This document shows, one piece after another, positions 7,118 to 60,847 of a DNA stretch of 64,000 nucleotides (its first letter is position 1; every line of letters begins with the position of its first letter). Location: contig JAOANR010000002.1 of assembly GCA_030278955.1 (NCBI GenBank), positions 7,119,982-7,183,981 on the forward strand. The letters are read 5' to 3'. The position numbers and the translations under genes are program-made. Source of the DNA: Hygrophila difformis (lineage: Eukaryota > Streptophyta > Magnoliopsida > Lamiales > Acanthaceae). A model generated the notes under the pieces. It was given only the letters and a program-made list of their open reading frames with translations. It did no database searches and was not told the DNA's origin.

Positions 7118-7235
7118 GTAAAGCTATTGTACTGCAGTTCATTAGATATACCAATTTCTTTTATATTTCGTAGTGTGAATTTCTTAAATGTCAGATCACT
7201 TTACTAGATGAGCTATTTCGACTCTCTTATATACC

Positions 7236-7928
7236 TGTAGGTGCAAAAATGCGTAGACAGAAACTGCAAAATAATTTTATTAATTTCACAAGAAATGTTT
7301 ACAATTATAGAGAATTTCAATGAATTTAAAAGAAATATGTGAAGATCAAACGATATGAGTGTTCGACTTCTGTTACTCCTTTGATTCCTCCAACCTTGAA
7401 GACGTCAAGATGCTTTTGTGCTTCTTCTTCGGCTTCTTGGAATTTCTGCAGCGTTTTGTTGCTGTAGATCTCAAGTGTTTGAGTCTTGAGAGTGATTAGG
7501 GTATGAAGATGTATGTCTGGAAGTGAGGTAGTGACCCCAATATGTGATAGGGTGCCTCTATTTATAGAGGGAAAACCCTAGGGTTTGTGGATGATGGACC
7601 AATCAATGGGCTGGTCCAATCCAAATTTCTATCGGGTCAGTGAGCATGTGGGCCTTTCATCTGGGCTTGTTCACATTGATTGATTTCCATGGACTGGCCT
7701 GCTTTAAGTGCCCATTGGATCATAGGCATGTGGGTCTTTCATTTGGACTTGTCCACATTGGCCCAATATAATTAAATCCATTTGGCTTGATGGATCCAAA
7801 TGGCCCAATAAATATTAATAATTATTTCAAGCATTTAATTTATTTAAAATGCCTAGAAAATAATTAAATTAATATTTAAATTTACACGTGTCGCATTTTT
7901 AATGGCGAATAAATTTCACGTGTTTACA
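7236..7928 (-). repeat. Tat element 3' LTR
   Basis: 693 bp, ending TTTACA on the + strand. Aligns without gaps to 20942-21634, with eight differences. A TATAAATA box (minus strand) lies at 7559-7566. Confidence 0.95.
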
Positions 7929-7941
7929 GATGCCCCCTCGA
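7929..7941 (-). other. Polypurine tract of Tat element
   Basis: Reads TCGAGGGGGCATC on the minus strand immediately before the 3' LTR, as needed for plus-strand DNA priming. Confidence 0.75.
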
Positions 7942-8771
7942 GACTTGTTTAGGGCGAAATAAATATTTGAGACGTGAGCGAGTCTCGAAATATTTATTTT
8001 GGTGCTTACCCATTTTTTGTTGGGCCTTTTTGGCAATCTTCCCTTTTTTTGACATTTTTTTTCATGGAATTTTGTCGTATTCTTTTCCCTTAGGCCGGTA
8101 CCCACGAACGAACATCCCTTTGGTCCATGGAATTTATTTTTTTCGTCTTTTTCTAAATGTCAAGGCCTTTGTGCACATACCACATTTGAATCAAGTGGAA
8201 CACCCGCAGTGCATGTCCTATTTCCCTTCCCAATATTTCTGACATACACTATCTAATTGAATAGATTTGTAGTTTAGTGTGGCCCTCTTTTTTTTTAAAA
8301 AAATAATGATATCACACCTGCATGGGATTTCCTGTATCTCAAAATAATCTGAGCAACTATTCCCTGCACCATATCTTTTGACTTTGTATGAGATCCTAAC
8401 AAGTAAATAAACAAATCTTCTTTTGATTCAAACCAACAACTGTCTTGCTCCACTTCAACGGGGATTCTGCTATATCTTGAATTAAATCTGATTTGCACTT
8501 GGAGATTAACGCTTTAAACTTTGAAATTTATATCCAAATCCAAGTTCGATTTGATAAGGTTCGAAACGAATTCAAATATTCATAGAGATGCAAATCTAAC
8601 TCCTCTATAAATCAAACCACGAATTGACATACTTGGGCTATATTTTTTTTGCAATCGAGTTCAACTACAGCAAGGGCACAAGATAGCAAGTAACCCACAT
8701 AAATTTTGCTTTCCTTTTTTTCCCTGCAATGTACGTTCCCATGTTCTAATTAAACCGAGACTTTTTTGCAG

Positions 8772-9231: not shown

Positions 9232-9453
9232 GTCGTCATGGTAGACGGGATGTTTGGTCACACGGCGCTGCCGTTGGCCTCCATCCTTAACCTACCCGCC
9301 ATCAAGTCGTCATGGTAGACGGGATGTTTGGTCACACGGCGCTGCCGTTGGCCTCCATCCTTAACCTACCCGCCATCAAGTCGTCATGGTAGACGGGATG
9401 TTTGGTCACACGGCGCTGCCGTCGGCCTCCATCCTTAACCTACCCGCCATCAA
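9232..9453. repeat. Three tandem 74-bp units
   Basis: Units at 9232-9305, 9306-9379 and 9380-9453 are nearly identical; unit 3 has GTCGG where the others have GTTGG. On the + strand each can encode MVDGMFGHTALP...ASILNLPAI, but the first two copies stop at TAG after the next ATGG, so translation through the array is doubtful. Confidence 0.9.
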
Positions 9454-10230
9454 CAAGCCTTCGACAATGGCGGGGTTGGTGACGGCGCTGCCGTTCACCT
9501 CAACCGTTACTTGTTCGGAAGGCTCGCCGCTCATCCGAAGCCACGTCGCCGCTCGTCCGAAGCCGCGCTGCTACTGTTGGAATCAAGTGGAGGAGCCGCC
9601 GGAATTCTGTTGCTATGTTCGTCGTCGTCCGAGGGGAGGAGGCCGGCGCAGGGAAGCCGCCGCTGCTCGCTCGCCGCCCGCTGTTCGCGGCCGCCGCCGC
9701 TCGCTCCCGGAGCTTGCCACGCCGCTGCTCGCCATGGCTGCCGTTTGGGCCGCCGGAGAGAGATAGAGATAGAGAGGATTGACGGAGGGAGCCCGCCGCC
9801 GTCCCGCCGTTCGCCGCTGGAGCCCAGCACCGCCGCCGTCCCGTGCGAAGGAGGGAGGCCGCCGGAGTTCGCGCAAGGAAGCTCATCGCCGCCGTACGCC
9901 CGGAGAACGTCGCCACCCCGCTGCTGCTTCGCCGTTCGCCGTCCGGAGGCCGCCGCTGGCGCCCGCTCGCGGAGGCGTCATGTCCGTCCCGCCGTTGCTG
10001 GTTCGCGCAAGGGAGGTGGCCGGAGAGGAGAGGGCGCTGCCGGGAGGGAGACGACACCGTTCGAACCGCCGCCGCGTCCGTCCGCGGCTTCGCCCGCCGC
10101 CGCTTCGATTGAGAAGCCGCTGTTCGCGGCGAAGAGAAGCCCTCGGTGTCGTCGTACGCCGCCGTGTCTTCGTGCCGCGCCGCCGTCGATCGGATTTGAG
10201 GGGAGATGGTGGCTGTGTTGTTATGAAAAA
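9440..10230. other. GC-rich GCC/CGC-repeat island
   Basis: The composition shifts abruptly from AT-rich to dense CCGCCG/GCCGCC text. Long open frames appear on both strands (296 codons +, 278 codons -) because stop codons are rare in such sequence. The translations are low-complexity Arg/Ala/Ser/Pro, so I do not call a gene. Confidence 0.6.
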
Positions 10231-10881
10231 AAATGGGGAAGCAGATTTGGGCATAGAGTGAAATGGGGCTGCGTTTCCTTTGGTGGTGGGAAGAAGAAGA
10301 CACAATTTTTTTCTTATTCCACTTTAACCCCAACACTTAAAAACCCTAGAATTCTTGACCCCAAATCTTTAGTAATTAAATTTTGCCCCCAAGTATTCTA
10401 AACCTTAGGATTTAAGCCCTAAATTTTGGAAGACCAAATTTTGACCCCAACATATTTGGCATTTTGAGGATAGGTCCCAAAATATTTAATTTTAAGTCCA
10501 AAATTTATTAGTGAACTTAAAATTAATTTTAAACAATATTTAACATGTATTTTTTGTTTACATGTAAATATTTACTTTTTGTAGTGCCCAAATCTTTCAT
10601 TTGTGGAAATTTAATTCCAAGTCCAAATATTTAAAATGAACTTAAAAATTAATTCCCAAACTTGACATGCATTTTTTTCATTTATTGTGTTTATCTTGCA
10701 ATATTTTTTTCATGTCATTCAAAAATTGCATCGCATTTATCTTGCAATGTTTTTGTTTTTTTTTTCTTTTCTTTCTTTCTTTTTTTTTTCTTTTTTTTTC
10801 GCCTTCTTTTTTCGTGGAAATAACCCCATTTTCTTGGAAGATAACCGATTTTCCTGATTTTTTTTTTTTTGCAGTGGCGTA

Positions 10882-13698
10882 ATGGCTAAACAATTTATCC
10901 GGAGTGACGGGAATCACCTTATAGTTGGTCGTGATAAGGATGCCCAGACTCGTATCCTTATCGACACTCCAGTGACAGCCCCTCGTTCAAGGGTTAATGT
11001 TGAACACCCAGAGCATTGGACTCGCAGGTCTGTATGGAAAATTGTGCGAGCGGATGGATCAGAAGGCGAGGAGACTGCCCTCTCACTTCGATCTACTCTT
11101 CACAGATTGGGTAGCCGTGAGCTCGAGCCATTTCACCCGAACGTGGTCCCGGATCTCAGCGCTGATGCCAATTTCCCAGACTCTATGTTCGGCATGTTTT
11201 GTTTCTACCCAGGCTATTGGGAGTGGGCTGAGCATGTGCTTTGGCACCACAAGCAGCATTTGAGGCGTGCACAGATCTATGACGGTGTCCAGGCTTCACT
11301 CTTCATGTATTACTGCAGCAAAGGAGTACTTCGCGCATTTCTTGAACGGTGGCGTCCAAGCACGAACACCTTATGTACTCCCATTGGTGAGCTTTCACCT
11401 TCGTTGTGGGATATCCATGAGCTGGTTAGGCTTCCCCTACAGGGTGAGTTTTATGACGAAGCTGTACTGAGTGACAAGACTCTGAGCTATGGGAACGACC
11501 AAACCCCAACTAGCTGCAAGTACGGTCCAATTATCATTTCGGTCTCTCTTCTTTGTTTTTATTTTGTTTCCCTCTTCCTTTTTTTGACTAATTTTCCTTT
11601 GCTTGCAGATATCTGTTTTTGGCATACCACTCGATCTGCAAGAAGGATAAGGCGGTCTCCATTGCGGCGTGGGTGGAGTTTTGGTTCGGGAAAGGCAGGA
11701 AATATTCTAGCCCGACATTTCAGCCTCAAAAGAAGAGGGCGAGGGCACCTAAGGAGCCGTCCATCCCAAGTGGGACTATAATCAGAACGCAACTGCAAGA
11801 GCCTGTTAGTGGCAATATGGATTTTCTAGGCGTGGAAGTTGCTTACCGTGATGAGCTTTATCTTGCAGCATTCATTTCTGCTTGGATTTGTGGATTTGCG
11901 CTTCCCCATGGCCGTGTAGGCATGGTTCGACCATCTGTCTTTCGAGTTGCCAGTCACATGGCGCGTGGCACACAGTTTTCCTTGGCTATCCCCGTGTTGG
12001 CGAGCATATACCGAGGCTTGAGGATGATATGCACGTCCACTGACTTAAAGCAGTGCAATGCGGTTTTTCCTCTTCACTTTGTTTATCCGTGGCTCGCGGG
12101 GCACTTTCCGACCCATGATTGGCTGGAGGTTGCGGGGAACCCGCCCATGGTGGGGTTTTCGGGTGTAGATGCCTTTAGACGTATCAGTTATACTGCCGCC
12201 CAGAGATTGTTTACCAACATCTCACCTTCTTCTTTAGTGTGCTTTCGATTCACCACTGTGACGGCTCCTTTCACCTTTCATGACAATGAGTTCCTTATCA
12301 ATTCCTCTAGACGGGATCTTCTCATTTGTGTACGTTCGGCTTACTTGACGTTTAGATGCGGGTCTTCTTGCATTGTTGAGGCATACAGTCCACATCGTTT
12401 TAGCCGGAGATTCGGGTTTTGTCAGCACATCCCAGGGCCATTGAAGGAAGAGATCCTTTCTGGAGATCCGAGCGAGTTATACCGGTTATGGTTGGTGAGC
12501 ACCCAATTTCTCACGAAGGCGTCTCTTACATATCCTGGTGTATCGGGTTCCATTCTTTCGGCAACCCGTGATTATGTCAAGTGGTGGTCCCGCTGTCATG
12601 ATCCGCCTAGCAACAATTCAAACTCCGCCGTCCGTGTTAGCAATGATGAAGCACTATCGCCCAACTTTGCCCTAAACGTAGTGCGTTCGCCGGCACAACC
12701 TCTGTTGAAAAACAAAGAAGTAATTTCCGCTTTATCTTTTTCTGATGAAGGGAGGGATGAGGTTTTTAACTTAGACCATCTTAGTATCCCTTCATGCATT
12801 TTTGAGGAAGAAGCACCTTTAACAGGACTTTTAAATGAAAGTTTTGATGTCTTTGTTCTATTCCTTGATTTTGTCTTTCTTTGGTTTCTTCGCTTGTACT
12901 TATGCTTTCCCTGTTTCCTTTCAGGTTGTGGGCTTGGGCAGCACATCAGCGCCCGATGATGGTGATGATGATGCAGGAAGCAGTGCTAGTGTTCCTATAC
13001 CCTTGACGCGTGCCCCGCGCGTTCCTCGAGCAGATGTAGTGCCATCACCCGCCCTTCCTTTAGCAATGGCCGATCCTATTGCCCACTCAGCATCTCCGGC
13101 AGTGCGTCCCTTGGAGAAGGCTACTCCTGCAACAACTATTATTACACCCGATGAAATGAAGAGGCGAGCAAGCTGGAAGGTAATGGACTATTATTGGGAG
13201 ATAGTGAGAGACATAATTAAGGATGCGCCTTTGGAGAAGCTTGCGAGGGGTCGAGCTGCAGCGGATGAGTTTCTTGGCTCCATGAGGGATTGCAAGCAGG
13301 ACACATCTCGGCTGGAGTTATCATTGCACCGTTTCTTCGATGGGGCCACGATGCTTCAGGATTTGCGTACGAGGGTGGAGTCGCAAGAGTCGTTGCAACT
13401 AGCCGAAGCGGAGCTGGCCAAGAGAGATAGTGAGTTGCAAGCCAAGACGGAAGAAGTTAAAGTGTTGGGCGCCAAATTAGAAGAGTTGAAGAAACAAGTG
13501 GTCGAAATGGAGTCATCTCTTCAGCGAGCTACAGGAGAGGAGCAAGTTCTTAACGAGGCTCGCGCATCTCAAGAGGCGGTTGTTTTGAAGATCAAGAATT
13601 CCCCAGGCCCATCCGCCGAAGATTCCGCCAACTTGAAAATGATGGAAACAGCTTTCAAGAGGTCCCGAAAGGAGTTGCTACATCTACAACCTTACTAG
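10882..13698 (+). CDS. Plant mobile domain (PMD) protein, three exons, antisense in the Tat element
   Basis: Exon 1 is 10882-11519, exon 2 is 11609-about 12848, exon 3 is 12925-13698; about 880 residues. The first intron (GT at 11520, TTGCAG at 11606) joins the frame cleanly across KYLFLAYHSIC. The second acceptor is TTTCAG; the donor that keeps the frame is a weak GTCTTT at 12849. Exons 1-2 hold the aminotransferase-like plant mobile domain, with the signature FLERWRPSTNTL, then GELSPSLWDIHELVRLPLQG. Exon 3 adds a Pro/Ala linker and a heptad-type coiled coil (about 13370-13580, LAEAELAKRDSELQAKTEEV). PMD proteins such as MAIL1/MAIN act in plant gene silencing and genome stability, and PMDs also occur in transposons. 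Role here unknown. Confidence 0.75.
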
Positions 13699-13786: not shown

Positions 13787-13792
13787 AATAAA
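13787..13792 (+). terminator. Poly(A) signal of the PMD gene
   Basis: AATAAA lies 89 bases after the stop codon, on the gene strand, in an AT-rich 3' region. Confidence 0.5.
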
Positions 13793-14369
13793 GCTCTCAT
13801 TTCTTCATTATTTACATCATGAATGCACTTGCAAGCCCCGATGCAAAACTTTACACCATCCTTCAAATTTGAATACTAAAACACTTTAATTAAAATTAAG
13901 TGCTTTAGTGCATGTAGCCATAACTTCTCCAAACCCAGTGATGGATTAATTTAATAAATCCATTCAACATTTTAAAGCAATGTGTTGAATTTTAACTCAT
14001 ATGCTCAAATTTATTCTATCAAGAAATGGATTAAATTTAATCAACCCATTTACTTAATTTTTTTTTTGTAATGGATTAACTTAACCCAACTACATTTTTT
14101 TCCATCAAGTAATGAACCAACATAATTAATCCAATTACTTGATTGATTTTTTTTGTTTATGACTGAACTTAGAAAAATGATTTCCAAGTTGCCTATGTAC
14201 CCTGTGAAGGGATCAAGCCATTACGTAGTTCAAAACAAATTGAATTTGTTTATTTTGAGCCGTACACAGTTTATACTCTTGCGGGCCAGGAGTATTACAT
14301 TTTTTTTGCTTTTTTTTGTGACGTGCAGTTTAGGCTCGTGCGTCAAGGAGCATTTTCCTTGTCCATTCT
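13793..14369. other. Spacer between convergent PMD gene and integrase
   Basis: AT-rich, with repeated 'gattaaatttaat'-like text near 13930-14140. No coding signal. Confidence 0.4.
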
Positions 14370-15641
14370 TCAAGCGTAGAACTTCTTCAAGAACCGCCCA
14401 TTTATCGGTCCGATGCTCACTCCATCGTTATCAATCATCATGTAGGCTCCGTTTGTGAAGACTTCCGTAATGACGTATGGTCCATCCCATTTGGAGGTGA
14501 ACTTGTTCCCACTGCGGTAGTTGATGACAATGGGTCTCCGGATGGCGAGGACGAGATCCCCAACTTGGAACGAGCGTGCCTTGACTTTCTTGTTGTAGAA
14601 CTTTGAGAGGCGGGCTTGGTAGCATTCCAACCTTTGTTGTGCTTCGAGCCTTCTTTCATCAAGGGCTTCCAATTCTTCCAAACGCAGTCGGGCGTTGTCT
14701 TCTTCAGTGAGTCCTTCTTGGATGGCGACTCTTAACGACGGGATTTGTGTTTCCAGTGGCAACACGGCTTCCACTCCATAGACCAACGAGTATGGCGTTG
14801 CCTTGGTGGGTGTGCGGAAAGTTGTTCGATATGCCCATAAAGCTTCGTTGATTTTCTCATGCCAGTCTCGTTTTGACTTGGAGACAACCTTCTTCAATAA
14901 ACCGCATAAGGTTTTGTCGAAGGCCTCTGCCAGTCCATTTGCCGGCGGGTAATATGCAGCACTCTTTCGTTGAGTAAATCCAAACTTCTCACACAACTTG
15001 GTGATGGTGCTGTTGACAAATGATCGTCCGTTGTCTGTCATGATGTAACGCGGGACGCCATAACGGTAGATGATATTGATTCGGATGAAACTAGCAACAT
15101 GTTCCCCTTTGACTTCTCTAAAGGGTGCAGCTTCAGCCCACTTGGAGAAATAATCCGTAGCAGCAAGGATATAGCCATGCCCCCTGGAAGAATTTGGCAA
15201 CGGTCCAACGATGTCCATGCCCCATGCGTCAAACGGCCATGATGCCACAGTTGGATGCAACGGCTCAGGAGGTTGGTGGATGAAGTTGGCGTGAAATTGG
15301 CAGGCTTGGCACTTTCGAGCAAACTCCATGCAGTCTCTAACCATTGTCGGCCAATAGTATCCCATTCTCTTGATGCGGAAATGTAGCTTCGGCCCCGATT
15401 GGTGTGCGCCGCAAATCCCAGCATGTACTTCTTCCAATGCTTGAACAGCTTCAGTGGAGCCCAAACAACGGAGTAGAACCCCTTCGAACGACCTTCTATA
15501 CAAGGTGCCATTAAAGTAGAAGAATCGGGCAGCACGTCTTCGGATATCAACCTTTTTTCTCGGATCCTCGGGTAACTTCTGATGCTGCAAGTAGTCTACC
15601 AAAGGCTGCCTCCAATCTTCTTCTTCGTCGATTTCAAACAC
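14370..15641 (-). CDS. Tat integrase region of pol
   Basis: An open 423-codon segment. The zinc-binding HHCC part is HAGICGAHQSGPKL ... CQACQFH. The catalytic core shows D in WGMDIVGPLP, D in IMTDNGRSF and E in NGLAEAFDKTL, so the DDE triad is intact. The C-terminal GPY-type motif is WDGPYVITEV. Integrase inserts the cDNA into host DNA. The frame upstream is interrupted by a TAA near 15678, so it would only be made as part of a readthrough or parental polyprotein. Confidence 0.85.
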   Translation of the reverse strand: MFEIDEEEDWRQPLVDYLQHQKLPEDPRKKVDIRRRAARFFYFNGTLYRRSFEGVLLRCLGSTEAVQALEEVHAGICGAHQSGPKLHFRIKRMGYYWPTMVRDCMEFARKCQACQFHANFIHQPPEPLHPTVASWPFDAWGMDIVGPLPNSSRGHGYILAATDYFSKWAEAAPFREVKGEHVASFIRINIIYRYGVPRYIMTDNGRSFVNSTITKLCEKFGFTQRKSAAYYPPANGLAEAFDKTLCGLLKKVVSKSKRDWHEKINEALWAYRTTFRTPTKATPYSLVYGVEAVLPLETQIPSLRVAIQEGLTEEDNARLRLEELEALDERRLEAQQRLECYQARLSKFYNKKVKARSFQVGDLVLAIRRPIVINYRSGNKFTSKWDGPYVITEVFTNGAYMMIDNDGVSIGPINGRFLKKFYA

Positions 15642-15659
15642 TTCAACGGCCGTATTCTC

Positions 15660-16130
15660 GTCGAACTCCTCATCGTCTTAAAAAACCGGAGGTATCACCC
15701 ATCCCTTAGTCAGCGTGATGGTCATCTTGTCTTCTGGCGAGGTAAGTGTTGACGCCAGCTTTGCGAGGGAGTCAGCTTGTCGATTTTGGCTTCTTGGGAC
15801 ATGTTCAATCGACATAACATGGAGATATGCCATCAACCTACGTGCGTACTTGTAATATGGCACCAGGTCCGGTTTCTTGACTTCATATTCGCCAAGTAGC
15901 TAGTTGACTATCAACTTGGAGTCGCCGTAGACTTGAAGATATAGTTACTTGGCGTCGACTGCCATTTCGAGTCCCAAGATCAGGGCTTGATATTCAGCAA
16001 CGTTATTGGAGCAATTGCTAGTGAGGGTAATTGAATGAGGTAAGATCTCACCCGTTGGAGTGACGAAGACGATTCCTACTCCAGCTCCTTCCTTCTCCAT
16101 CGAAGTACATTTTCCATGGTTGTCTAGCTT
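15660..16130 (-). pseudogene. Archaeal-type RNase H domain of Tat pol, broken
   Basis: After the first RNase H the frame reads WKMYFDGE; it then shifts, and further pieces include NVAEYQALILGLEMA, VYGDSKLIVN and MSIEHVPRSQNRQADSLAKL. This is the second RNase H characteristic of Tat elements. Stops are visible near 15946, 15900 and 15678, and a frameshift near 16090. Confidence 0.75.
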
Positions 16131-18526
16131 CAGTTAGCATCACATCTTCGTCCGGAAGGTCGTCAGAAAGATCCCATTCAGCAGGTATCGGATGATCAGC
16201 TAAGAAGTCGGCCAGGGCTTGTCCTTTGATAGCCTTTTGTGGTACGTAAATGATCTCGAACTGTTGAAACAACAAGTACCATCGTGAAAGTCTTTCAGAA
16301 AGAGCAGATTGAGACAACACATGTTTGAGAGGATTTGCTTTGGATACGAGATGTACCGTGTGAGCTTGGAAGTAATGCTTCAACTTGTGGATGGCGAAGA
16401 CCAATGCTAGACAAAGCTTTTCGATTGGGCGGAACTTGAGCTCGTTCGGCGTCATCATCCGACTTAGATAGTATAGTGCATTTTCCTTGCCCCCATCATT
16501 TTCTTGAGCTAGCAAGGCGCCGACAGAGTTTTCTTGGGCAGCTACATACAGGATCAATGGTCGTCCGATCACTGGAGCAGCTAGCACTGGCGGCTTCATC
16601 AGATACGCTTTGACGTTGTCGAACGCTTTCTTGCAGGATTCATCCCACTCGAACGGAATACCCTTTTTCATGAGCTTGCTGAACGGTTGACATCTTCCAG
16701 CAAGATTGGGAATGAACCTCCGGATGTATGCGAGCTTACCTTGAAGGCTCTTCAACTCGTGGATATCCCGTGGCTCCAGCATCCTCAAGATTGCATCAAT
16801 TTTGGCTTGCTCGATTTCAATGCCGTGATTCCGTACAACAAAGCCGAGGAACTTTCCAGAGGACACGCCAAACGCGCACTTCAACGGATTCATCTTCAGT
16901 TGATGCTTGCGAAGGCGTTCGAACACGGTCCTCAAGTCTTGCAACTCGTTCCTTTGTCTTTACCACGAGATTGTCGACGTAGCATTCAACCAAGTTGTGC
17001 AGCATGTCATCGAAGATCTTTTGCATGGCACATTGATATGTTGCCCCTGCATTCTTCAGGCCGAAGGGCATAACTTTATAACAGTATATGCCTTTTGGAG
17101 TCCGGAACGCGGTCAGCTCTTCGTCTTCGGGCGCCATCTTTATTTGGTTGTAGTCGGAAGACCCATCCATAAACGACAATGCTTCATGTCCCGTGGTGGC
17201 ATCAATCATCAACTCGGTGATCGGCAACGGGAACTCGTCTTTTGGGCAAGCCTCGTTGAGATCGCGGAAGTCCACGCAGACTCGGATTTGTCCATTCTTC
17301 TTCCTCACCGGGACGATGCTTGAGATCCAGGTGGGATATTGCACTTCACGAATGAAGCCAACTTCAATCAGCTTGTTGACTTCAGCTTCAATTTGTGGGA
17401 GAAGCTCAGGGCGGAACCGACGTTGTGCTTGCTTCACGGGTCGTGTATCTTTCTTCACTGCAAGGCGGTGGACGGCTATCTTGGGGTCCAGACCGGGCAT
17501 TTCCTTGTAGGACCATGCAAAGACGTCTCTGAATTCTTTGAGTAGTGCCACATACTTTTCCACCTCATCTACGGTCAGTAAGGCACTGATAAACGTCGGG
17601 CGATGATCTTTCTCATCTCCTAAGTTCACTTCACAGAGTTCATCCACAGTGACCTTGATTTCTTCCTCAAGTTGCATCGGCGCTGCGTTGGCGTCTTCTT
17701 CACTTGGCTCACCGCAGTCAATGGTGATATGATGAATGTCAACTTTGTCAGCTTGATCATCTTCGTTATGCTTTGTGAAGATGATGGTCCGTTTTTTGAG
17801 CTTTAGCCATTCGTCGGATGAGACAGTCCACTCAACTTGACGCTTCATGCGGGAAGGTACTGTGCTTCTCACATCGTTGCCGTAGTTAGGGTCGTCCAAT
17901 ATCCCTTGTTTTACCGGAGACCGCTCTTTGCTAGCCGATGTTTTGATTTGTGATTGGCGTTTTGTAGAACCTAGCCTTTTGAAGACGGATTTTGCAGAGT
18001 CTTCTTTGGCAACAGCCCCGAGCCTATCGAAAACAGTTGGCTTCACTTCTTTGTTTGCTCGAAGCCGGCGAAAGACGGATTCTTTGTGCTCGATTGTCTC
18101 CGTTGAGCCAAGTCTATCATGGACACTTCGTTTTTGCTCTCCTTTTGACGGACTACCGATGCGATCAAATGCTGACTTTCGTGCAGGTTGGTCCTTTGGA
18201 GCATGATCCTCTTGATTTGCTTCTTCGGTGATGTAATTGGTCGTAGCTCGTTTTATGACGATACGAACCGGTGCCTTCACTGTTTGTTCCGCTTTGACGA
18301 ATATGGGCGCTTTCGATGCTTGGGGCGCCGTGTCAAATTCCGCAACATACCCAAGTCCACTCCGGTCACCCTTTCTTCGATTGTTGTCCGAGAGCTTTCC
18401 CAACGGAGATGGCTCATTTGGGTTGAATCCAGACTTGGTGTGCAGCTTGAATGCCTTTGGACCGAATTCCTTATCGTTCTTTAGTCGGCGTGCCTCACTA
18501 CCTTTGAGTTGAATTTTCACCGTTTT
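16048..18526 (-). pseudogene. Tat reverse transcriptase and RNase H, frameshifted
   Basis: 18526-16817 carries a linker with repeats of a 'FDRLGS/FKRLGS' motif (about 17900-18170) and RT motifs: EVGFIREVQYPTWISSIVPV, CVDFRDLNEACPKDEFPLP, YKVMPFGLKNAGATYQ and YVDNLVVK. The frame shifts near 16940 and continues as MNPLKCAFGVSSGKFLGF and the RNase H part (LILYVAAQENSVGALLAQ). The usual YVDD is YVDN, removing one catalytic aspartate. RT copies the RNA genome into DNA. A TAG at 18527 separates it from protease. Confidence 0.85.
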
Positions 18527-19394
18527 CTACGACATGCCAGGATCAATGGGCGTTAGTGGGAGTGTAAGCCCCTCGAATGCCTCTTCCAGGATCGATTTTC
18601 CCTTATCATCACGGACTGGTTGATCATCTTTACGTTCTTCTTCCCCGCACGAAGGTGCCTTAGCTTTGGACGAATCAAGGTAGTATTTAGCGTCCCCGTA
18701 GTAAGACTCGGCCACCGCGAATGGTTTGTCATCGGCGATAACCCTTTTGACGACGCCGTTGTGCACGTACTTGAAGCACTGGTGCCATGTTGAGGGAACA
18801 ACGACGTTTTCATGGATCCATGTCCGGCCAAGAAGCATGTTGTATGATGTTCTTGCGTCAATGACGTGGAAGTATGTGTTTGCAACCATCTCATCAATTT
18901 GCAAACGGACTCGGATTGCACCAAGGGATTTTTGCCCCCCTTGGTTGAAGCCTTGGATCAACATTTTGCTATTGGATAGTTCTTCCTCAGAGATGCCCAA
19001 TTCCTTCAGGGTGTGAAGTGGCATGATGTTGACGGCAGAACCCCCGTCTATCAGGACGCGATTTTACTCGCTTGTCGTCCACGTATCCAACGACGAACAA
19101 TGGTCGGTTATGAGCCTTCGAATTTTCCAGCTCCATCGACATGTCGTCGTCATTGAACGTGATGGACATCATGCATTCGTTGAGATGCGAATGATCCACA
19201 ACTTGTTTGGTGTGATCTTGCTTCGACGTGCTCCCAACTTCGATGACGGTGTTGCAGGTGGTGGAATTGTGAGGAACTTTGATCTCGATCGATCCAACTT
19301 GGATGGAAACGGTGTTGGCCATCTCTGCTTCGTCTGCCAAGGTGATTTTGCCTTGTTTGAAGAGATCCATGATTTGTCCTTGAAAACGAAGCAA
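18527..19394 (-). pseudogene. Tat protease region, frameshifted
   Basis: The active-site text IDGGSAVNIMP is reached by a frameshift near 19060, followed by an open 165-codon segment (LKELGISEEEL ... YNMLLGRTWIHE) ending in TAG at 18527. The LLGRTWIH motif is usual for retroviral-type aspartic proteases of gypsy elements. The enzyme would cut the polyprotein. Confidence 0.75.
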
Positions 19395-20875
19395 TCTTGG
19401 ATCGTGTGGCTCACCAAACGGTGGTACTTGCAGTATAGCGGCTCGTTGGTCATCCCAGCTTGCTCGGGACGTTTCATCCTTGGTAGCTCGATGAGGTTTT
19501 CTTTCATCAAGTCATCGAAGATGCCTGGTAAGTCGGAGTCAAGGAATGGGTACGTCTTAGCCCGCCTATCTTCCAATGACGACTTTTGACGTTGAGCTTG
19601 TGGTGGCTTTGGCTTGTCGTTTGTCACCGGCTCCTTCCCGCGTACCTTTACGAGAGCGACGCTTGTTGCCATCGCATCCTTTGTGGGTGGCTTCGACTGT
19701 GGCTTGCCTCCCTTCTTCCATTCGACTCGGTTGTTTGTACGAGTTTGTTGAACGGGCGGACCATAGGCTCCACTTGACGCCAAACTTAGCTCCATGTCGT
19801 GAGCACGAGTTGCAAGCTCCTCGAATGTCCGGGGACGAATGCCTTGCAGGATGTATCGTAGGCCCCATTGCATGCCTTGGATGCACATCTCAATCGCCGA
19901 CGTCTCAGACAAGCGATCCTTGCAGTTGAGGCTCAGGCTTCTCCAGCGGTTGATGTAGTCGATCACCGGCTCACCCTTTGATTGTTGCGTGTTCGTCAAT
20001 TCTATCATGCTGACGGTACGCCGTGTGCTGTAAAAACGGTTCAGAAACTCTTGCTCAAGTTGATCCCAACTGTCGATGCTGCCGTGTTCCAAGTCGGTAT
20101 ACCATTCGAACGCATTCCCCTTTAGTGAACGAATGAACTGTTTGACGAGGTGATCTCCAAACGTACCCGCTTCGTTGCATGTCTCTACGAAATGGGCGAT
20201 ATGTTGCTTGGGATTCCCTTTGCCGTCGAACTGTTGGAACTTGGGCGGTTGATAGCCTGCCGGCATCCTCAGTGAGTCGATGCGGGCGCTGTATGGCTTG
20301 AGATACGTCAAGGAGGATTTTGATCCTGCCGAGACCTCTTCCTTCAGCGTTCCCGTGATGAACTCTTTCAGTTGATCAGCCGAGATGAAGCCGTCAGGAG
20401 TGACTTGGACGTCAGCGGTTGCTTTTCCTTTTGCCGAAGCGCCTTGCCGGGAAGTCTCTCCATCGTCGCGGATCTCTACGGGCTTGTTCACCGCTTGGCC
20501 GCCGTTAGAGCCGTCCAGTCTGTTCATCATTTGCTCCATGCGTGCATCTTGCAACTCGGATCTCTTCACAAGCATTTCCACGATCTTTGTCAGGTTGGAC
20601 ATTTGCTCTTCAAGAGTGCTGGCTTGGGTTGTCATTGCAGCAGCATGACGCAGGGCGGATGTTTCTTCTTGATCTCCCCGCGGGCTTGACAACGGCGTGG
20701 AAGATCCCGATCTATGGTCGTTTCCTTCTTCCAGCAGCGGCATATCCGCATCAACTTCTTTTTCCCGCGCAGCATCGGCGGCCTCCATTGCTTTCTTCAT
20801 GTTCCTTGTGGTGACATTGGGCATAGCGGCACCGGATGTTGAAGAGTTGCTCTTGGAGGTGTTCCTTGAAGCCAT
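19385..20875 (-). pseudogene. Tat gag, near-complete but frameshifted at its 3' end
   Basis: ATG at 20875 ([12 protein letters not shown]) starts an open frame of about 490 codons. Residues 100-170 are coiled-coil-like ([20 protein letters not shown]). The Retrotrans_gag domain spans about 205-310 ([20 protein letters not shown] ... [13 protein letters not shown]). A Cys/His motif [18 protein letters not shown] near the end resembles the Tat zinc-knuckle-like region. The frame shifts near 19385. Gag forms the particle that packages the RNA. Confidence 0.85.
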
Positions 20876-20920
20876 TAGATTTCGTTGACGACGTCTGGAG
20901 GAGATGAAAGGCAGAAGTGT

Positions 20921-20938
20921 CCCACTGGGCGTGCCAAA
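20921..20938 (-). other. Primer-binding site of Tat element
   Basis: Minus-strand text just inside the 5' LTR is TTTTGGCACGCCCAGTGGG. The TGGCACGCCC core is of the kind used by Tat/Athila-type elements; it is not the initiator-Met site. I cannot name the tRNA with certainty. Confidence 0.65.
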
Positions 20939-20941
20939 ATC

Positions 20942-21634
20942 TGTAGGTGCAAAAATGCGTAGACAGAAACTGCAAAATAATTTTATTAATTTCACAAGAA
21001 ATGTCTACAATTACAGAGAATTTCAATGAATTTAAAAGAAATATGTGAAGATCAAACGATATGAGTGTTCGACTTCTGTTACTCCTTTGATTCCTCCAAC
21101 CTTGAAGACGTCGAGATGCTTTTGTGCTTCTTCTTCGGCTTCTTGGAATTTCTGCAGCGTTTTGTTGCTGTAGATCTCAAGTGTTTGAGTCTTGAGAGTG
21201 ATTAGGGTATGAAGATGTATGTCTGGAAGTGAGGTAGTGACCCCAATATGTGACAGGGTGCCTCTATTTATAGAGGGAAAACCCTAGGGTTTGTGGATGA
21301 TGGACCAATCAATGGGCTGGTCCAATCCAAATTTCTATCGGGTCAGTAAGCATGTGGGTCTTTCATCTGGGCTTGTTCACATTGATTAATTTCCATGGAC
21401 TGGCCTGCTTTAAGTGCCCATTGGATCATAGGCATGTGGGTCTTTCATTTGGACTTGTCCACATTGGCCCAATATAATTAAATCCATTTGGCTTGATGGA
21501 TCCAAATGGCCCAATAAATATTAATAATTATTTCAAGCATTTAATTTATTTAAAATGCCTAGAAAATAATTAAATTAATATTTAAATTTACACGTGTCGC
21601 ATTTTTAATGGCGAATAAATTTCACGCGTTTACA
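20942..21634 (-). repeat. Tat element 5' LTR
   Basis: 693 bp, the promoter LTR for the minus-strand transcript. It abuts the primer-binding site on its left side. ATACC follows at 21635-21639. Confidence 0.95.
21265..21272 (-). promoter_or_regulatory. TATA box of Tat 5' LTR
   Basis: Reads TATAAATA on the minus strand, in a CTATAAATAGAGG context typical of plant LTR promoters. The transcript would run leftwards through gag and pol. Confidence 0.6.
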
Positions 21635-21692
21635 ATACCAATTGATGGTTCGTGGTTGAAAACTTAATTGAGCATGCATGTTTTCAGTTTAT

Positions 21693-23601: not shown

Positions 23602-23837
23602 CTATTCATCAATCGAGATTTTGTCAACTTTTTTAAAATTTTAGAGATGGATTTAGAAAAATCATAAACTCCACGTAAGGGGATATATTCAATCAAAATT
23701 TTTTTAGATTTTTGTGAACTCTCGAAATTTGAGATATCCAATCTAAATTTTTAAAAACCTTTAAAATTTTGGAGGTATTTAATACGATTTTAAAAAACTT
23801 TAAAATATGCAAGTATTCAATACAAATTTTAAAAAGG
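23602..23837. other. AT-rich repeats of 'ttttaaaattttgg' type
   Basis: Short overlapping copies of T/A-rich text such as 'ttaaaattttggagg'. Open frames here are low-complexity. No gene. Confidence 0.4.
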
Positions 23838-25390
23838 GACCTAATAGAAGTTTTCTGGAGGTTCGAACATGAGGACTCCCTTCCGAGAAATGTCGGGAAA
23901 TCTTTTATCACTCTTATTCCTAAGGTGTCGAATCCAGTGGAGATTGGGGATTATAGATCTATTTCATTGGTGGGAAGTGTATACAAAGTGGTGACAATGG
24001 TGCTGGCAAACCGTCTGAAGGAAGTAATAGCTTCGGTGATGGGTGCTTCACAAATGGCGTTTGTGAAGGGGAGACAAATCTTGGATGGGGTGTTAGTGGC
24101 GGCCGAAGTGATTCACTCCAACCATGTGTCCGGGAGGCAAGGATTCGTTATAAAATTGGATTTTGCAAAGGCGTATGACAACGTGTCGTGGGAGGCGTTG
24201 TTTAGGGTGTTAAAGGTTATGAATTTCGAGGAGAAATGGATCGGGTGGATTAGGACGTGCGTTGAATCGGTTGTCGCAGCTGTGTTGATAAATGGTTTCT
24301 GGACCGAGTTTTTTAAAATGCATAAAGGTCTTCGACAAGGTGACCCACTATCCCCTTACTTGTTCGTTTTGTTAGCCGAGGTCCTCAATAGAATGGTGTG
24401 TCAGGCTGTTGGTTTAGGGCTGTATAGGGGCCTGGAGGCAAGTGGTAACGGCCCGATTATATCGCATTTACAATATGCGGATGATACGGTGTTGTTTTGT
24501 GACGCGGATTTAATACAAAAGTTCTACTAATTAAAAGGTTGTTCAGGTGTCTTTATCTAGCCACCGGTCTTAAGATAAACTTTGGGAAGAGCCAATATTT
24601 GGGATTAACTGTTCAGTGCAGCGGCTGAATGAGGCGGCAGGGACACTTGGTTGCGGTGTTGGTAGGTGGCCAATGGTTTATTTGGGGATACCAATTGGGG
24701 TGCGGATTAATGGTGTGTTAGTGTGGCATCCGGTCCTTGATAAAGTGAAGCAAAGACTCACGGGATGGAAGAGTAGGATGCTGACACAAGTCGTGCGGGA
24801 GACTATGTTGAATAAAATCCGTTATGAGCAGTCCACCGGTTTATTTCTTATCCTTATTTAAAGTACCAAGAGCTGTGGTTGATCGTCTTGAGTTAGTTAA
24901 GAGGAGGTTTTTTTGGAACGAGGAGGGGACGAAAAAGCTACATACCATTAATTGGAATTCAATTTGTACGCCTAAGGAAGAAGGAGGACTAGTCATTTGG
25001 CAAACGGAGTGTAATAACAGGGCACTGTTGTTGAAATGGCGTTAGAGGTTTGGGACGGAGTCATTATGGAGAGATGTAATCAATGCGAAGTACTAGGGGG
25101 TAACTCTCCTTTACTACCGGCGGCTAGGGGAAGGAGATCACTATGGGGAAAGGTCTGCAGTTCATGGGATAATTTGATCATGAGTGAACTGACTTGTAAA
25201 TTTGTAATACAGATTGGTGATGGATGCAAGGTGAGATTTTGGCATGATGGTTGGGTCTATGGTGGTCAGCCGTTGAAGGAATTGTTTCCAAGGATATATG
25301 CACTATCGGTGAACAAGGCAGGGAGGGTGGTGGAGTTTGGAAGGTGGAGTGGCCTCAAATGGGTTTGGGATATAGAGTTGAGGAGGCAAC
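23838..25390 (+). pseudogene. LINE reverse transcriptase and C-terminal region, frameshifted
   Basis: 23838-24530 reads non-LTR RT motifs in order: ITLIPKVSNPVEIGDYRSIS, ASQMAFVKGRQILDGVL, VIKLDFAKAYDNVSWEAL, KGLRQGDPLSPYLFVLLAE and LQYADDTVLFCDAD; catalytic YADD is at 24474-24485. A stop follows at 24528. Downstream pieces in other frames match the region after RT (WPMVYLGIPIGVR; LVKRRFFWNEE; RFWHDGWVYGGQPL). The normal enzyme primes cDNA at a nicked target. Confidence 0.85.
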
Positions 25391-26748
25391 TGCCGTAGAT
25401 CGAAACTTGTTTAGTGACAATATCCGGATTAATGTTGACTGAATTTTAGGGTTAGGTAAATGATGATTAGATGGATAGATATATGGATATTGATGAAGAA
25501 GCGAGAACACACACGAAAGATGGATATAACATAAGATGATGAAACTAAATTGTAAGATAAAAGATAAGGAAACTTATGAATGAAGGGGACCCGAACTTGC
25601 CAAGGGAAGTGAGACGAACTCAAGACAAATGGCTTCCTTCAAGTGCATCATTCATTGACAATCCATCGAGCAAGTTTCCAACTTGATGGCGTGAGGGAAA
25701 TGAACATAAGTTCAAGACAAACACGGATGGGGGAGAACACTTTTGAAAGAGTGCTCTCGGTTATGAACTTTGAAAATATGAGAATGGATTTCAATATTAA
25801 GCAAAGTTGTTTACAAATGAAGGGGGAGGACATATTTATAGGCCAAACCCCTTAGGAAACAAGAGAAATGAAAAATACATCAAAATTGGACCAAATGCGG
25901 TTTATATCGCATCGATGCGATGCGGTATAAACCGCATTGATGGAAAAAGACCGCATTGGCCATTACAAACCTATCTATTAAAAAAGGGGTCAATTCGGTT
26001 TATGAGGGCAATTCGGCATATATCGAATTGGCAACAAAATCGAATTGGGAACTTAGGAAATAATATTACTGTTGTGGAAAAAGCAATTCGGTTTAAGCAA
26101 TTCGGTCTATGGGAATACCGAATTGACCAATATCGAATTGAGGGAGACTAGGAAAATACTAAGGCAAATGCAAAAAGGCGATGCGGTATTAAACCGCATT
26201 GAGAGAGATGCGGTTTATACCGCATCACATTGGAAAGGCTGGGGGATCGATGCGGTATTACGAAACCGCATTGGGCGATGCGGTTTATTCCGCAGCGATG
26301 CGGTATAAACAGCATTGCTTAAAGCGCATTGATCCCCATGCCTTAGTCAATTTTGCATGCCTTTATTTTCTACACTATTACAAAATATATTATCCGACGT
26401 CCGGTGGTGGTTCCGGCTGAACTCCGGCCACTTTTCTGACGAGCTCCTTTTTGGGCCTCTTCATGCTTGTTGGGCTTTCCTTGTGCATCCTAAGGCCTTC
26501 TTCCATCTTTATTTAATTCCGTAATGGGGAATCCATTGGAATCCATGTTAATGGATTCCGGATTTGTCCGGGCTTGATCTATCCGGATCATTATTTGAAG
26601 CTTTTGGGCTTCTTGGGGCTCGAAGTTATTTGTCTCCTGCAAGAAAAATTTATACAGTGCATCAGAAAATTTCTTGGCCTTTTGTTTGGATACTGGGCCT
26701 TCGGGGATTATCGGAATAATTAATCCGTTGGTTCTGGCGACTACGCCA
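25391..26748 (-). repeat. CRM-like element 3' LTR
   Basis: 1358 bp. Contains the C-terminal 90-odd codons of pol and an array of GCGGT/ACCGC and TTCGGT/ACCGAA motifs (25885-26330), longer than in the other LTR. Confidence 0.9.
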
Positions 26749-28490
26749 TCCCCACCCCCTTGGGAAGGTTGAGACATCAACCGATCAGAATCCAACTCAT
26801 CATCCCTTTCGAATAGAGATAAATCAGCAACATTGAAAGTCGGATTAATATTAAAGTCTTCAGGAAGCTCAATCCGATAAGCGTTGTCGATTTTCTCAAG
26901 GACTTTGTAAGGTCCTGTTCCGCGAGATGCGAGTTTGCCATGTGTCTGTGCAGGAAAACGTTCTTTTCGCATGTGCACCCAGACCCAGTCTCCTGGTTTC
27001 AGCAACAGCCTTTTTCTGCCCCTGTTGGCAAATTTGGCATATGTCTCCGACGCCTTCAGCAAGCTATTCCGAACATTCTCGTGCAGATCCTTGATTGCCT
27101 TAGCCCTGTCCCTGCCATTGAAGTTAAGACGCTCACTACTGGGTAGTGGCAGAAAATCAATAGGGGTCATTGGGTTAAATCCATAAACAACCTCGAAGGG
27201 TGACATGTGTGTGGCACGATGAATATGACGATTATAAGCAAATTCAATGTAAGGCAAACATTCATCCCAACTTTTAGAGCTCAAAGAGGTAATTATGCGT
27301 AGGAGGTTACCCAACACGCGATTTACCGCTTCTGTCTGTCCGTCTGTCTGAGGATGGTAAGATGTTGAGAACAAAAGTTGTGTACCCATCTCACGCCAAA
27401 AACCCTTCCAGAAATAGCTTACGAACTTGGCATCTCGGTCTGACACAATTGACTTTGGTACTCCATGAAGACGTACCACTTCCCTGTAGAATAAATTCGA
27501 GATATGCCTGGCATCATTGGTCTTCACACATGGTATGAAATGTGCCATCTTGGAGAATCGATCAACTACCACAAAGATTGAATCTTTGCCTCTTGCAGTC
27601 TGTGGTAGTCCAAGCACGAAGTCCATTGATATGTCCAGCCAGGGTCCTTCTGGCACAGATAATGCTTGATATAAGCCGTGGGGTTTAAAAGTCGACTTGG
27701 CCTTCAGACAGACCAAGCACCTAGCAATGAAGCGAACAACCTGGGCTTGCATTTTTGGCCAGTAGAACTTTTCAACAAGGATTCCCACGGTTGCATCTTT
27801 TCCAAAGTGTCCCATGAGTGCACCGCCGTGAGCCTCTTGAATTAGCAACTCCCTGACAGATCCCTTTGGGATGCATAATCTGTTTCCATCATACAGGAAC
27901 CCGTTCAGTTGGGAGAACTCCTTGAAACCATTCTGCTTTGTCCTCTCGTACAACACTCTAAAATCTTCGTCAGTGGAGTACTGACTCTTGATATGCTCAA
28001 ATCCAAACAGATGAGTAGTTGCAAATGTGGCTAATGTTGTTCTTCTGGAGAGTGCATCTGCAACCACATTGTCTTTCCCTTTCTTATACTTAATCACGTA
28101 AGGGAAGGATTCTATAAATGTGCTCCACCGAGCATGTCTTTTGCTTAATTGTCCCTGAACCTTTATGTGCTTAAATGTCTCATGATCAGTGTTGATCACG
28201 AATTCTCTTCCTCTCAGATAGTGTTGCCATGTTCTCAAAGACAGAACAACATCATATAATTCCTTGTCGTACGTGGAATAATTCAGTTGTGCTCCACTGA
28301 ACTTCTCACTGTAGTATGCTATCGGCCTTCCTTCTTGAAGCAACACCGCTCCCATGCCCGTACCTGACGCATCACTTTCAATTTCAAATGGCAAATCGAA
28401 TTTTGGTAATGCTAGGACAGGTGCATGAGTGAGCTTATCCTTGAGGTCATCGAATGCTTTTTGCTGTGCCGACCCCCACTTGAATGGAAT
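26490..28490 (-). pseudogene. CRM-like RNase H and integrase, reading into the 3' LTR
   Basis: After the TGA, an open segment (634 codons from 28394) has RNase H (EIESDASGTGMGAVLLQEGR; DALSRRTTL), an HHCC finger (HGGALMGHFGKDATVGIL ... CLVCLKAKS), and DDE residues in DISMDFVLGLPQ, IVSDRDAKFVSYF and TDGQTEAVNRVL. The C-terminal tail (RGTGPYKVLEKIDNAYRIEL; PTFNVADLSLFE) is followed by about 90 residues encoded by the LTR. CRM integrases carry a C-terminal targeting region that also overlaps the LTR. Confidence 0.85.
26749..26763 (-). other. Polypurine tract of CRM-like element
   Basis: Minus strand AAGGGGGTGGGGA directly before the LTR start TGGCGTAG. Confidence 0.75.
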
Positions 28491-28496
28491 GTCCTT

Positions 28497-29525
28497 TCAA
28501 AGAAGTGCAGTGATCGGGGCCGCAATTACACAAAACTGTGGAACGAATCTTCTGAAGAAACCACTCAAACCCAGAAAACTGCGTACTTCATGCACAGTGG
28601 TTGGCGGCTTCCAGTCAGATATAGCCTTGATCTTTGATTCATCCACTTTCAGTGCATCTCTTCCTACGAAAAATCCAAGAAACGTCACTTCTGGCACACA
28701 GAAGCTACATTTCTCGAAGTTGGCATACAGGCGGACTTCTCGCAATCGATACAGTACCTGTTGCACATGATTTACATGATCGATTAGAGAACAGCTATAA
28801 ATGAGAATGTCATCAAAATAAACTACAACAAATTTTCCTATGAATTGTCGAAGAGTATCATTCATCAAACGCATAAATGTAGAGGGGGCATACGTAAGAC
28901 CGAATGGCATAACGAGCCATTCATATAGACCAAACTTCGTCTTGAATGCGGTCTTCCATTCATCCCCGGGCTACATTCTGATTTGATGATACCCGCTCTT
29001 TAGATCAATCTTGATGAAAAGACTTGCACCACCAAGCTCATCTAGCATGTCGTCTAGTCGCGGAATTGGGTGACGATATTTGACCGTAATACCATTGACT
29101 ACTCGGCAATCAACACACATACGCCATTCGTCATTTTTCTTTGGGACGAGGAGGACTGGAACGGCACACGGAGATAAACTTTCTCGAACCCAACCTTTTT
29201 CGAGCAATGCTTGCACTTGCCGCTGAATTTCCTTTGTCTCTTCGGGATTCATGCGGTATGCTGGTCCGTTGGGAATTGAAGCTCCGGGCACAAATTCAAT
29301 ACGATATTCCACGCCTCGGAGTGGTGGTAAGCCAGATGGCACTTCTTCCGGAAAAATATCCTGATTCTTGTCAAGCATCCTGGAAATTTCCAAAGGCAAA
29401 TCAGGTGTAGTAGGAACAGTTCTGTTGACATATTCATCAGGTTTAATTAATGCAATAAAACAGTGACCTGAGAAGTCAGGTCCTTGTGCTGCTTGCTGAA
29501 ATGCAGTCTTGGTCAAATCAGACAT
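28497..29525 (-). pseudogene. CRM-like reverse transcriptase with two stops
   Basis: 29525-28971 includes ALLEKGWVRESLSPCAVPVL, MCVDCRVVNGITVKYRHPIP and IKIDLKSGYHQIRM, then TAG. The same frame resumes with [18 protein letters not shown] and [11 protein letters not shown], so the catalytic YFDD is present, and then TGA at about 28497. Both stops are in frame, consistent with point mutations. Confidence 0.88.
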
Positions 29526-29865
29526 TGATCCAGGCTTGATGAACTCTCGCCAACTTTGGCTTTTCCTCTTTCCCTGGCCTTGTGGTCGGCTTCTGCTTGA
29601 GCTACTTTGTTCTTTAGCTTTTCTTGGTCTAGCCTGACAGCTTTCACAGATAAAGGTTTAAACAAATATTCTTTTTGTCCATGTTTAAAATATAAAACAT
29701 TGGATTTTCCCTTGTAAGTGGCATCTTAATCATAAAGCCACGGTCTTCCAAGCAAAACATGACATGTGTTCATGGGAACGACATCACATAATACTCTCTC
29801 CGAGTAGGTGCCCTTTGTGATAGGGACCCATGCCTGTTGGCAGACCTTGGTCTTGCCACTGTTGT

Positions 29866-37582: not shown

Positions 37583-37584
37583 AT

Positions 37585-37596
37585 TGGTATCAGAGC
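37585..37596 (+). other. Primer-binding site, initiator Met tRNA type
   Basis: TGGTATCAGAGC starts two bases after the 5' LTR; standard for plant copia elements. Confidence 0.9.
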
Positions 37597-45475: not shown

Positions 45476-45775
45476 ATTGGAAAATGAAATTTTTTGTGCC
45501 TAGCTCTGTCTAGTGATGGTTACGTTATTTCTCTTTTCTCAAGCGATAATAATGAAGTCAACTCTTAATTAGATAGATTCTTGGGAAGAAATTTTCAGAA
45601 AACAAATCCGACGTGTGATACGCGGGAGTACATGAATGAGACAAATGAAATGTGGATCCAACACTTTTTTCTCAAATCCAATTACTTGTGTTCGATATTG
45701 AACAACATTAACACAATATATGTCCTTCAGATGAGTTCAAACATAGGGTGTGGATTGAGTATAGATACATGTACA

Positions 45776-57862: not shown

Positions 57863-57892
<30 letters not shown>
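57862..57892. repeat. TTA microsatellite, left part
   Basis: (ATT)n interrupted by the LTR element; continues at 61761-61806. Confidence 0.9.
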
Positions 57893-57893
<1 letters not shown>

Positions 57894-60845: not shown

Positions 60846-60847
60846 TT

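Follow-up and report, generated by a model that had tools for sequence, protein, structure and literature searches.

An intron-bearing plant-mobile-domain gene antisense to gag-pol in a Tat-lineage retrotransposon of Hygrophila difformis, with a predicted fold similar to VANC21

Introduction

The plant mobile domain (PMD) is widespread in angiosperm retrotransposons and is also found in host silencing factors. In passages of a 2021 review it figures as a domain of unknown function (PMC8616336). A 64,000-nucleotide stretch of the Hygrophila difformis genome, in the following called the window, carries a PMD gene with introns on the strand opposite to the gag-pol genes of a retrotransposon, which raises the questions of how a retrotransposon keeps such a gene and what its product could do. 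A first-pass annotation had described a three-exon gene inside a Tat element and supposed that its product could interfere with host silencing, given that PMD proteins of the host act there.

Organization of the host element

The gene is carried by an LTR retrotransposon of the Tat lineage, 14.4 kb long and lying on the minus strand, which consists of the following parts:

7231-7235, no strand: left target-site duplication ATACC, from the sequence
7236-7928, minus strand: 3′ LTR with TG...CA ends, 98.85% identical over 694 bp to the 5′ LTR
7929-7946, minus strand: polypurine tract AAGTCTCGAGGGGGCATC, read from the sequence
14373-15677, minus strand: integrase (Pfam rve, Integrase_H2C2)
15681-16133, minus strand: additional RNase H (aRH), split in two open pieces with RVT_3 in each
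16051-16959, minus strand: RNase H (open frame, matched by Pfam over its residues 105-234)
16820-18526, minus strand: reverse transcriptase open frame (Pfam)
18530-19063, minus strand: protease open frame, a weak match (E=0.006) below the cut-off
19172-20875, minus strand: gag from a putative ATG (open frames, Pfam)
20919-20936, minus strand: primer binding site TGGCACGCCCAGTGGGAC, read from the sequence
20942-21634, minus strand: 5′ LTR, pairing with the 3′ LTR
21635-21639, no strand: right target-site duplication ATACC, from the sequence

Paired LTRs, a target-site duplication, a primer binding site, a polypurine tract and gag-pol identify an LTR retrotransposon, in which the Pfam matches on the minus strand give the order gag, protease (weak), reverse transcriptase, RNase H, aRH and integrase. 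We assigned it to Tat (Ogre/Retand group) because the aRH sits between RNase H and integrase, a position that according to passages of Neumann 2019 (PMC6317226) marks the angiosperm Tat elements, Ogre or Retand. All 120 reverse transcriptase homologues listed come without lineage names, and the assignment is thus given at the level of the Ogre/Retand group. The insertion is young, as the LTRs diverge by only about 1%; with a substitution rate of 1.3e-8 per site per year its age is roughly 0.4-0.5 million years. The pol region of the window copy is interrupted at several places, so that its domains are spread over different open frames, and the PMD gene is intact in this same copy.

Structure of the PMD gene

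The gene occupies positions 10882-13698 of the plus strand, between integrase and 3′ LTR, and encodes a PMD and a coiled coil in three exons with 883 codons (copy counts refer to the 30 copies described below):

10872-10874, plus strand: 3′ splice acceptor CAG, following a T-rich tract and 7 nt ahead of the ATG, in 30/30 copies
10882-11519, plus strand: first coding exon with the start of the PMD (sequence, Pfam, copies)
11520-11608, plus strand: intron 1, GT...AG (GTACGG...TTGCAG), antisense to the genomic RNA
11609-12848, plus strand: second coding exon with most of the PMD and a linker, 3′ border uncertain (12840 or 12848)
12849-12924, plus strand: intron 2 with a clear acceptor CAG and a weak donor
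12925-13698, plus strand: third coding exon, coiled-coil tail, stop TAG at 13696-13698 (sequence, Pfam, homologue model)
13787-13792, plus strand: AATAAA poly(A) signal, 87-103 bases after the stop in 30/30 copies

A three-exon PMD gene antisense to Tat gag-pol is thus borne out by the open frames, the Pfam matches, the LTRs and the position of the aRH. Intron 1 was also placed correctly at 11520-11608 by the first-pass annotation: its GT and AG are kept in all 30 copies, and its removal joins SCK to YLFLAY, where homologues carry SCKYLFLAY uninterrupted. For intron 2 the acceptor is kept in 30/30 copies and the donor allows several choices. The donor at 12848 leads to 883 codons, and the rival GT at 12840 would need a different acceptor to stay in frame. 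A rough donor matrix of our own, not a published one, rates the donors at 12719 and 12761 higher; the stretch that would be lost with them seems by eye to be common to homologues (FNLDHLSIPSCIFEE... versus LDLDNISINSQFFED... of P0026) and varies little among the copies, although it holds one of the two premature stops shared between copies. If intron 2 is left unspliced the frame ends at 12959, and therefore a shorter PMD-only product is possible.

The Pfam profile of the PMD (PF10536) matches exon 2 with E=1.6e-20 and 74 bits, against a curated cut-off of 34.9, and exon 1 alone with E=1.1e-6 and 28.5 bits, below this cut-off. The coiled-coil tail forms a long helix in the predicted model of a homologue. 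An identity of the tail with HAUS1, Fez1 or CENP-H was rejected, as the Pfam matches stay below the cut-offs of these families; matches of homologues to further coiled-coil families, with cut-offs not shown, were likewise taken as noise. The acceptor before the ATG and the AATAAA, both present in every copy analysed, suggest an upstream non-coding exon and a separate transcription of the gene, and together with the helical tail they agree with the first-pass description of the gene.

Of 7,992 candidates scored in the protein collection, 81 matched; those with names are plant proteins, and a few are nameless. The best homologue is 33% identical over 98% of the query, and because several homologues share PMD, linker and coiled coil we regard this as one conserved architecture. 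Among the viral contigs searched for relatives 42 stretches fitted the pattern and none was confirmed.

Copies in the genome and survival of the introns

A DNA search of the plant's own genome (915 Mb), in which 40 of 170 candidates were scored, the window copy included, found at least 40 copies at 95-100% identity, introns included. The whole gene is spanned by 39 of the 40 listed matches, and the remaining one starts at gene base 6. Their lengths are 2,811-2,828 bases, compared with 2,817 in the window, therefore none of the 40 has lost an intron. Thirty copies were analysed further, the window's among them; these are the best-scoring of the 40 scored among 170 candidates, so that young intact copies are favoured in the sample. 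The full 883-codon frame is found in 17 of them and is broken in the other 13.

The surroundings are shared as well. In 28 of the 29 other copies the blastn matches reach past 14370 into the integrase end, and in one (L020) they stop at 14051. For at least 12 of the 40 listed PMD matches, the window's included, one of 40 listed gag matches is found on the opposite strand and the expected side within 40 kb, ten of these pairs at a distance of 5.0-5.8 kb (5.6 kb in the window); one further pair within 40 kb among the matches listed is discordant.

Seen from the strand of the genomic RNA the introns read CT...AC, and by the established rules of splicing such introns should stay in this RNA. Because the introns are antisense and splicing of the genomic RNA should not remove them, the gene should survive retrotransposition together with its introns. 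This expectation of the first-pass annotation is supported by the copies, as both introns are present in 30/30 and the spans are full-length in all but one of the listed matches. The antisense layout thus shows a way for a retrotransposon to keep an intron-bearing gene.

Selection on the protein

Variation between related copies had been named beforehand as a test of the gene, and it is not neutral. Variants shared by two or more copies comprise 73 non-synonymous, 97 synonymous and 2 stop changes, while 110.2, 51.5 and 6.3 are expected from a mutation spectrum drawn from the same variants. Relative to this expectation the ratio of non-synonymous to synonymous changes in the real frame is 0.35 with p=1.5e-11, p values being rough here because the copies are related to each other. 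For single-copy variants the corresponding numbers are 185, 158 and 9, versus 234.3, 102.9 and 13.9 expected, with a ratio of 0.51. The codon-level analysis dropped 11 codons with several differences. Four other frames gave ratios of 1.27-1.51 (single-copy) and 1.45-1.99 (shared). However, one antisense frame reaches 0.54 (single-copy) and 0.46 (shared), which weakens the frame specificity of the selection and is taken as a mirror of the third positions.

Split by segment, the shared non-synonymous and synonymous variants number 20/25 in exon 1, 20/43 in the PMD of exon 2, 13/16 in the linker and 20/13 in the coiled coil; constraint is seen on the PMD and hardly at all on the tail. All eight single-copy indels break the frame and the sole indel found in several copies is +3. 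This pattern of variants should fit a protein that is selected during amplification and released from selection after insertion. Two premature stops are shared between copies, the first ahead of intron 2 and the second within the tail, so some copies have been amplified without an intact frame.

The 40 listed copies, and the purifying selection found in the real frame, make the PMD gene more than a chance occurrence. From the sequences we are nearly certain that a Tat-lineage (Ogre/Retand group) element carries it as an accessory gene in antisense orientation, with a PMD of the Gypsy type, with splice and poly(A) signals of its own and with purifying selection on its protein.

Position within the PMD family

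An unrooted tree of 25 PMDs was calculated, in which the reference sequences of PMC5418596 and a named MAIN sequence are not included. The window PMD and 17 homologues form one group in this tree with a support of 100 against the rest. The locus L059 stands on a separate long branch, the host PMDs L001 and L002 form another branch, and MAIN-like together with MULE-type PMDs form a third; L004 and L005 of this genome are the ones we take to be MAIN-like. The window PMD is 15-21% identical to the PMDs of host genes and MULEs in this genome and 15-20% to these two presumably MAIN-like genes. The comparison with MAIN/MAIL-like proteins that was suggested as a check has thus placed it with the Gypsy type; a grouping with MAIN/MAIL (PMD-C, see below) is not seen, given the labels assumed here. 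On the basis of its position in the tree we rejected the idea that a MAIL-type host gene had recently been captured.

Passages of Ikeda 2017 (PMC5418596) describe PMD-A1 and PMD-A2 as Gypsy-only, PMD-B as mainly genic and PMD-C as the clade with MAIN/MAIL, and our sequence tree agrees with this grouping. The window gene lies within a Gypsy element and apart from the genic PMDs, as is the case for clade PMD-A; the clade names PMD-A/B/C are carried over from PMC5418596, and the Gypsy context is that of the window gene, to which the homologues are joined by the tree.

The tree contains two separate Gypsy-type PMD lineages of this genome. The second, deeply diverged family is represented by one locus (L059, G000:C7:1605600-1611200), where an antisense exon encodes 677 aa of PMD, another frame of 261 aa the coiled coil, and tandem repeats rich in GC lie upstream. 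A gypsy-type integrase end is located there on the other strand, with a weak Pfam match below the cut-off and the remainder recognized by eye. L059 is one of at least 33 PMD matches over 1-346 with 111.9-116.0 bits, all but one of them without an internal stop. Another locus (L060, G000:C14:19849800-19855400) has a PMD gene split over several frames; next to it, on the opposite strand, is a frame that by eye resembles a MULE transposase with an OTU-like part and has no match in Pfam.

Predicted fold and the match to VANC21

VANC21 is the sole strong fold match of two homologue models, with TM 0.48-0.49 for these predicted models. A structure of VANC21 with its target DNA is PDB 9lnj, released in December 2025. 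VANC21 is encoded by the MULE VANDAL21 (Hosaka 2017, PMC5735166; Sasaki 2023, PMC10398659), and like VANC21 the PMD protein, with its similar predicted fold, is TE-encoded. VANC genes have exons (Fig. 5 legend of Hosaka 2017, PMC5735166), as the PMD gene does, and the non-coding DNA of VANDAL21 shows tandem repeats and fast divergence, as in the PMD element. On the other hand homology between VANC21 and the PMD is not detectable by sequence, VANDAL belongs to the DNA transposons while the PMD element is an LTR retrotransposon, and DNA binding and demethylation have been shown for VANC, whereas for the PMD they are proposed from the fold.

By sequence the match is not found again. Pfam matches of the window PMD exons comprise only the PMD and no DUF1985 (E up to 0.1), the same is true for P0010 (E up to 1), and for 55 proteins there is no DUF1985 among the best 25 of 87 Pfam families. 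Aligning PMD with DUF1985 in hhalign gave nothing, with thin profiles. A 58-row PMD alignment searched against the PDB found mostly coiled-coil chains, and no VANC21 among the best 60 of 200. An alignment of DUF1985 from this genome finds VANC21 with E 6.8e-6, and therefore the link between DUF1985 and VANC21 holds. DUF1985, the VANC domain, is common in this genome (at least 150 scored of 889 candidates), and 17 of the frames are 35-84% identical to an 18th.

No paper on a fold link between PMD and VANC was found in a search largely outside the subscription journals. In passages of PMC8616336 PMD and VANC stand side by side as two counter-silencing strategies, in passages of PMC6419827 they appear in separate talks, and the passages of both are without a structural comparison. 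The VANC21 structure was reported in print when still unpublished, as seen in part of that report, and passages of a 2026 meeting report (PMC12859917) mention unpublished VANC-DNA structures. As far as our literature search reached, a VANC-like mechanism for the PMD, as proposed from the models, is likely new.

Non-coding DNA around the gene

Two non-coding regions flank the gene:

9232-10240, no strand: GC-rich hypervariable block on the upstream side of the gene; a 74-bp unit is repeated three times in tandem at 9232-9453
13941-14135, no strand: four GGATTAA/TTAATCC motifs; a dyad-symmetric tandem array in other copies

The genes are 96.5-98.5% identical in 417 of 435 pairs of copies. Of the upstream GC-rich block a median of 6-12% of the length is shared between copies (range 0 to 71%). 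Identity is about 80% in the matched stretches of the AT-rich part and 80-83% in the spacer. The matched integrase is 97% identical, with a median coverage of 79-84% that goes down to 0 in some pairs.

The spacer was measured in 29 of the 30 copies (572-946 bp) and contains 3-11 GGATTAA/TTAATCC motifs in each of these 29. Four of five copies scanned have an array of about 5 to 9 near-palindromic units of 45-50 bp like TTTGCAAGTAATGGATTAAATTTAATCAACCCATTTACTT; in the spacer of the window copy Tandem Repeats Finder calls no array, and the four motifs only are seen. TGGATTAA occurs six times on either strand of the 64-kb window, four of these in the spacer. Motifs, arrays and fast divergence parallel the targets of VANC, so that the dyad array and the upstream repeats are candidate targets of the PMD protein.

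Possible function

We give an even chance to the PMD protein being a VANC-like DNA-binding factor that acts on its own element, with the fold taken from prediction and transcript, binding, target and anti-silencing all inferred. The PMD would be the VANC-like DNA-binding domain and the coiled coil would serve oligomerisation. The protein would be made from its own antisense transcript, enter the nucleus and bind to sites that recur in non-coding DNA of the family it belongs to, with the dyad array or the upstream repeats as candidates; once bound, it might oppose silencing or activate the element. The supposed action on host silencing may stand, but kinship with host PMDs is a weak argument for it, as the window PMD falls apart from the host and MULE PMDs (15-21% identity); the predicted match to VANC21 offers a better route. 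The fold link gives a concrete and testable hypothesis for the function of the PMD and, if it is true, VANC-type anti-silencing extends from DNA transposons to LTR retrotransposons.

The protein could instead be a cofactor of retrotransposition, acting on the particle, the pre-integration complex or the choice of target site, for instance in nuclear import or as a chromatin tether, and not on silencing. The location of the gene between pol and 3′ LTR and the helical tail of the homologue model would suit such a role, purifying selection is compatible with any protein function, and passages of PMC7264820 discuss whether antisense ORFs generally might function as accessory proteins do in retroviruses, nuclear entry included. 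However, the only strong fold match is an anti-silencing DNA binder and this analysis gave no link of the protein to gag or integrase, so that we hold a cofactor to be rather unlikely.

We judge it improbable that the element's PMD is a decoy interfering with host silencing by MAIN/MAIL1-PP7L. MAIN and MAIL1 do silence TEs together with PP7L according to passages of PMC7156037 and share the PMD with the window gene, and TE-made PMD proteins are proposed as counter-silencing factors in passages of the 2021 review (PMC8616336); but the window PMD belongs to another clade than the presumed MAIN-like genes, and no phosphatase domain is found among the Pfam matches of its three exons.

A function of the antisense transcript itself, in regulation by dsRNA or siRNA with the protein as a by-product, is very improbable. 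Such a role has been proposed for antisense ORFs generally (passages of PMC7264820), and in tea PMD genes yield phasiRNAs at 175 PHAS loci (passages of PMC10673657); against it stands the low shared ratio in the real frame compared with all other frames except one in antisense. Finally, a once-captured gene hitch-hiking as a passive passenger is hardly credible: the frame is indeed broken in 13 of 30 copies, but there is purifying selection, the acceptors are intact in all 30 copies, and the deeply diverged locus L059 has a PMD gene likewise antisense to the integrase end.

On a wider and more tentative view of the VANC-like reading, which we consider possible but not probable, PMD and VANC may be one ancient fold family of TE-borne, sequence-specific DNA binders. 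The antisense, intron-protected PMD genes of Tat elements would then be VANC-like anti-silencing genes co-evolving with the adjacent arrays, and hosts would have reversed the fold into MAIN and MAIL1. These belong to a distant clade and are host silencing factors, opposite to VANC in the direction of their effect; if true, this view ties VANC-type anti-silencing to the MAIN/MAIL silencing pathway.

Known relatives

The kind of gene described here is already known, as Gypsy-encoded PMD clades and antisense Tat ORFs are both in print; the first-pass annotation was right that extra antisense ORFs had been seen in Tat elements (passages of PMC7264820 and PMC11963269). As here, the PMD is encoded by a Ty3/gypsy element in PMD-A1 and PMD-A2 (passages of Ikeda 2017, PMC5418596, where counter-silencing is also considered for the MULE PMDs). 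It is present in 57% of Ogre elements according to passages of Neumann 2019 (PMC6317226), and passages of PMC9289625 also report PMDs in Gypsy elements. The passages of PMC5418596 and PMC6317226 contain neither an antisense structure with introns nor selection among the copies of one family, and neither the fold match nor the array seen here.

The antisense ORFs of the Retand lineage (TRP28; Grande gene23, RIRE2, Retand) have the same position between pol and 3′ LTR but encode TRP28, while the window gene encodes a PMD. Passages of the same papers (Vicient 2020 and 2025, PMC7264820, PMC11963269) report that roughly one half of the surveyed Retand elements have tandem arrays in this region, and that Grande gene23 has a promoter of its own; the word "intron" has 0 occurrences in the two papers.

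Other features of the window

An open frame on the plus strand at 3625-4047 matches origin recognition complex subunit 3 (ORC3_N, E 9e-20); it lies some 3 kb away from the element and probably represents a host gene exon. At 23733-24527 of the plus strand there is a reverse transcriptase fragment (RVT_1), LINE-like by eye. LTR-like direct repeats at 25391-26748 and 33056-34320, about 92-95% identical, belong to a second gypsy-type element with gag-pol frames at 26490-31164 on the minus strand. The 667-bp direct repeats at 36921-37587 and 44814-45480 are 99.7% identical and are probably the LTRs of a very young insertion, and two further direct repeats, each about 930 bp long and 94.9% identical to each other, are located at 57892-58824 and 60847-61760.
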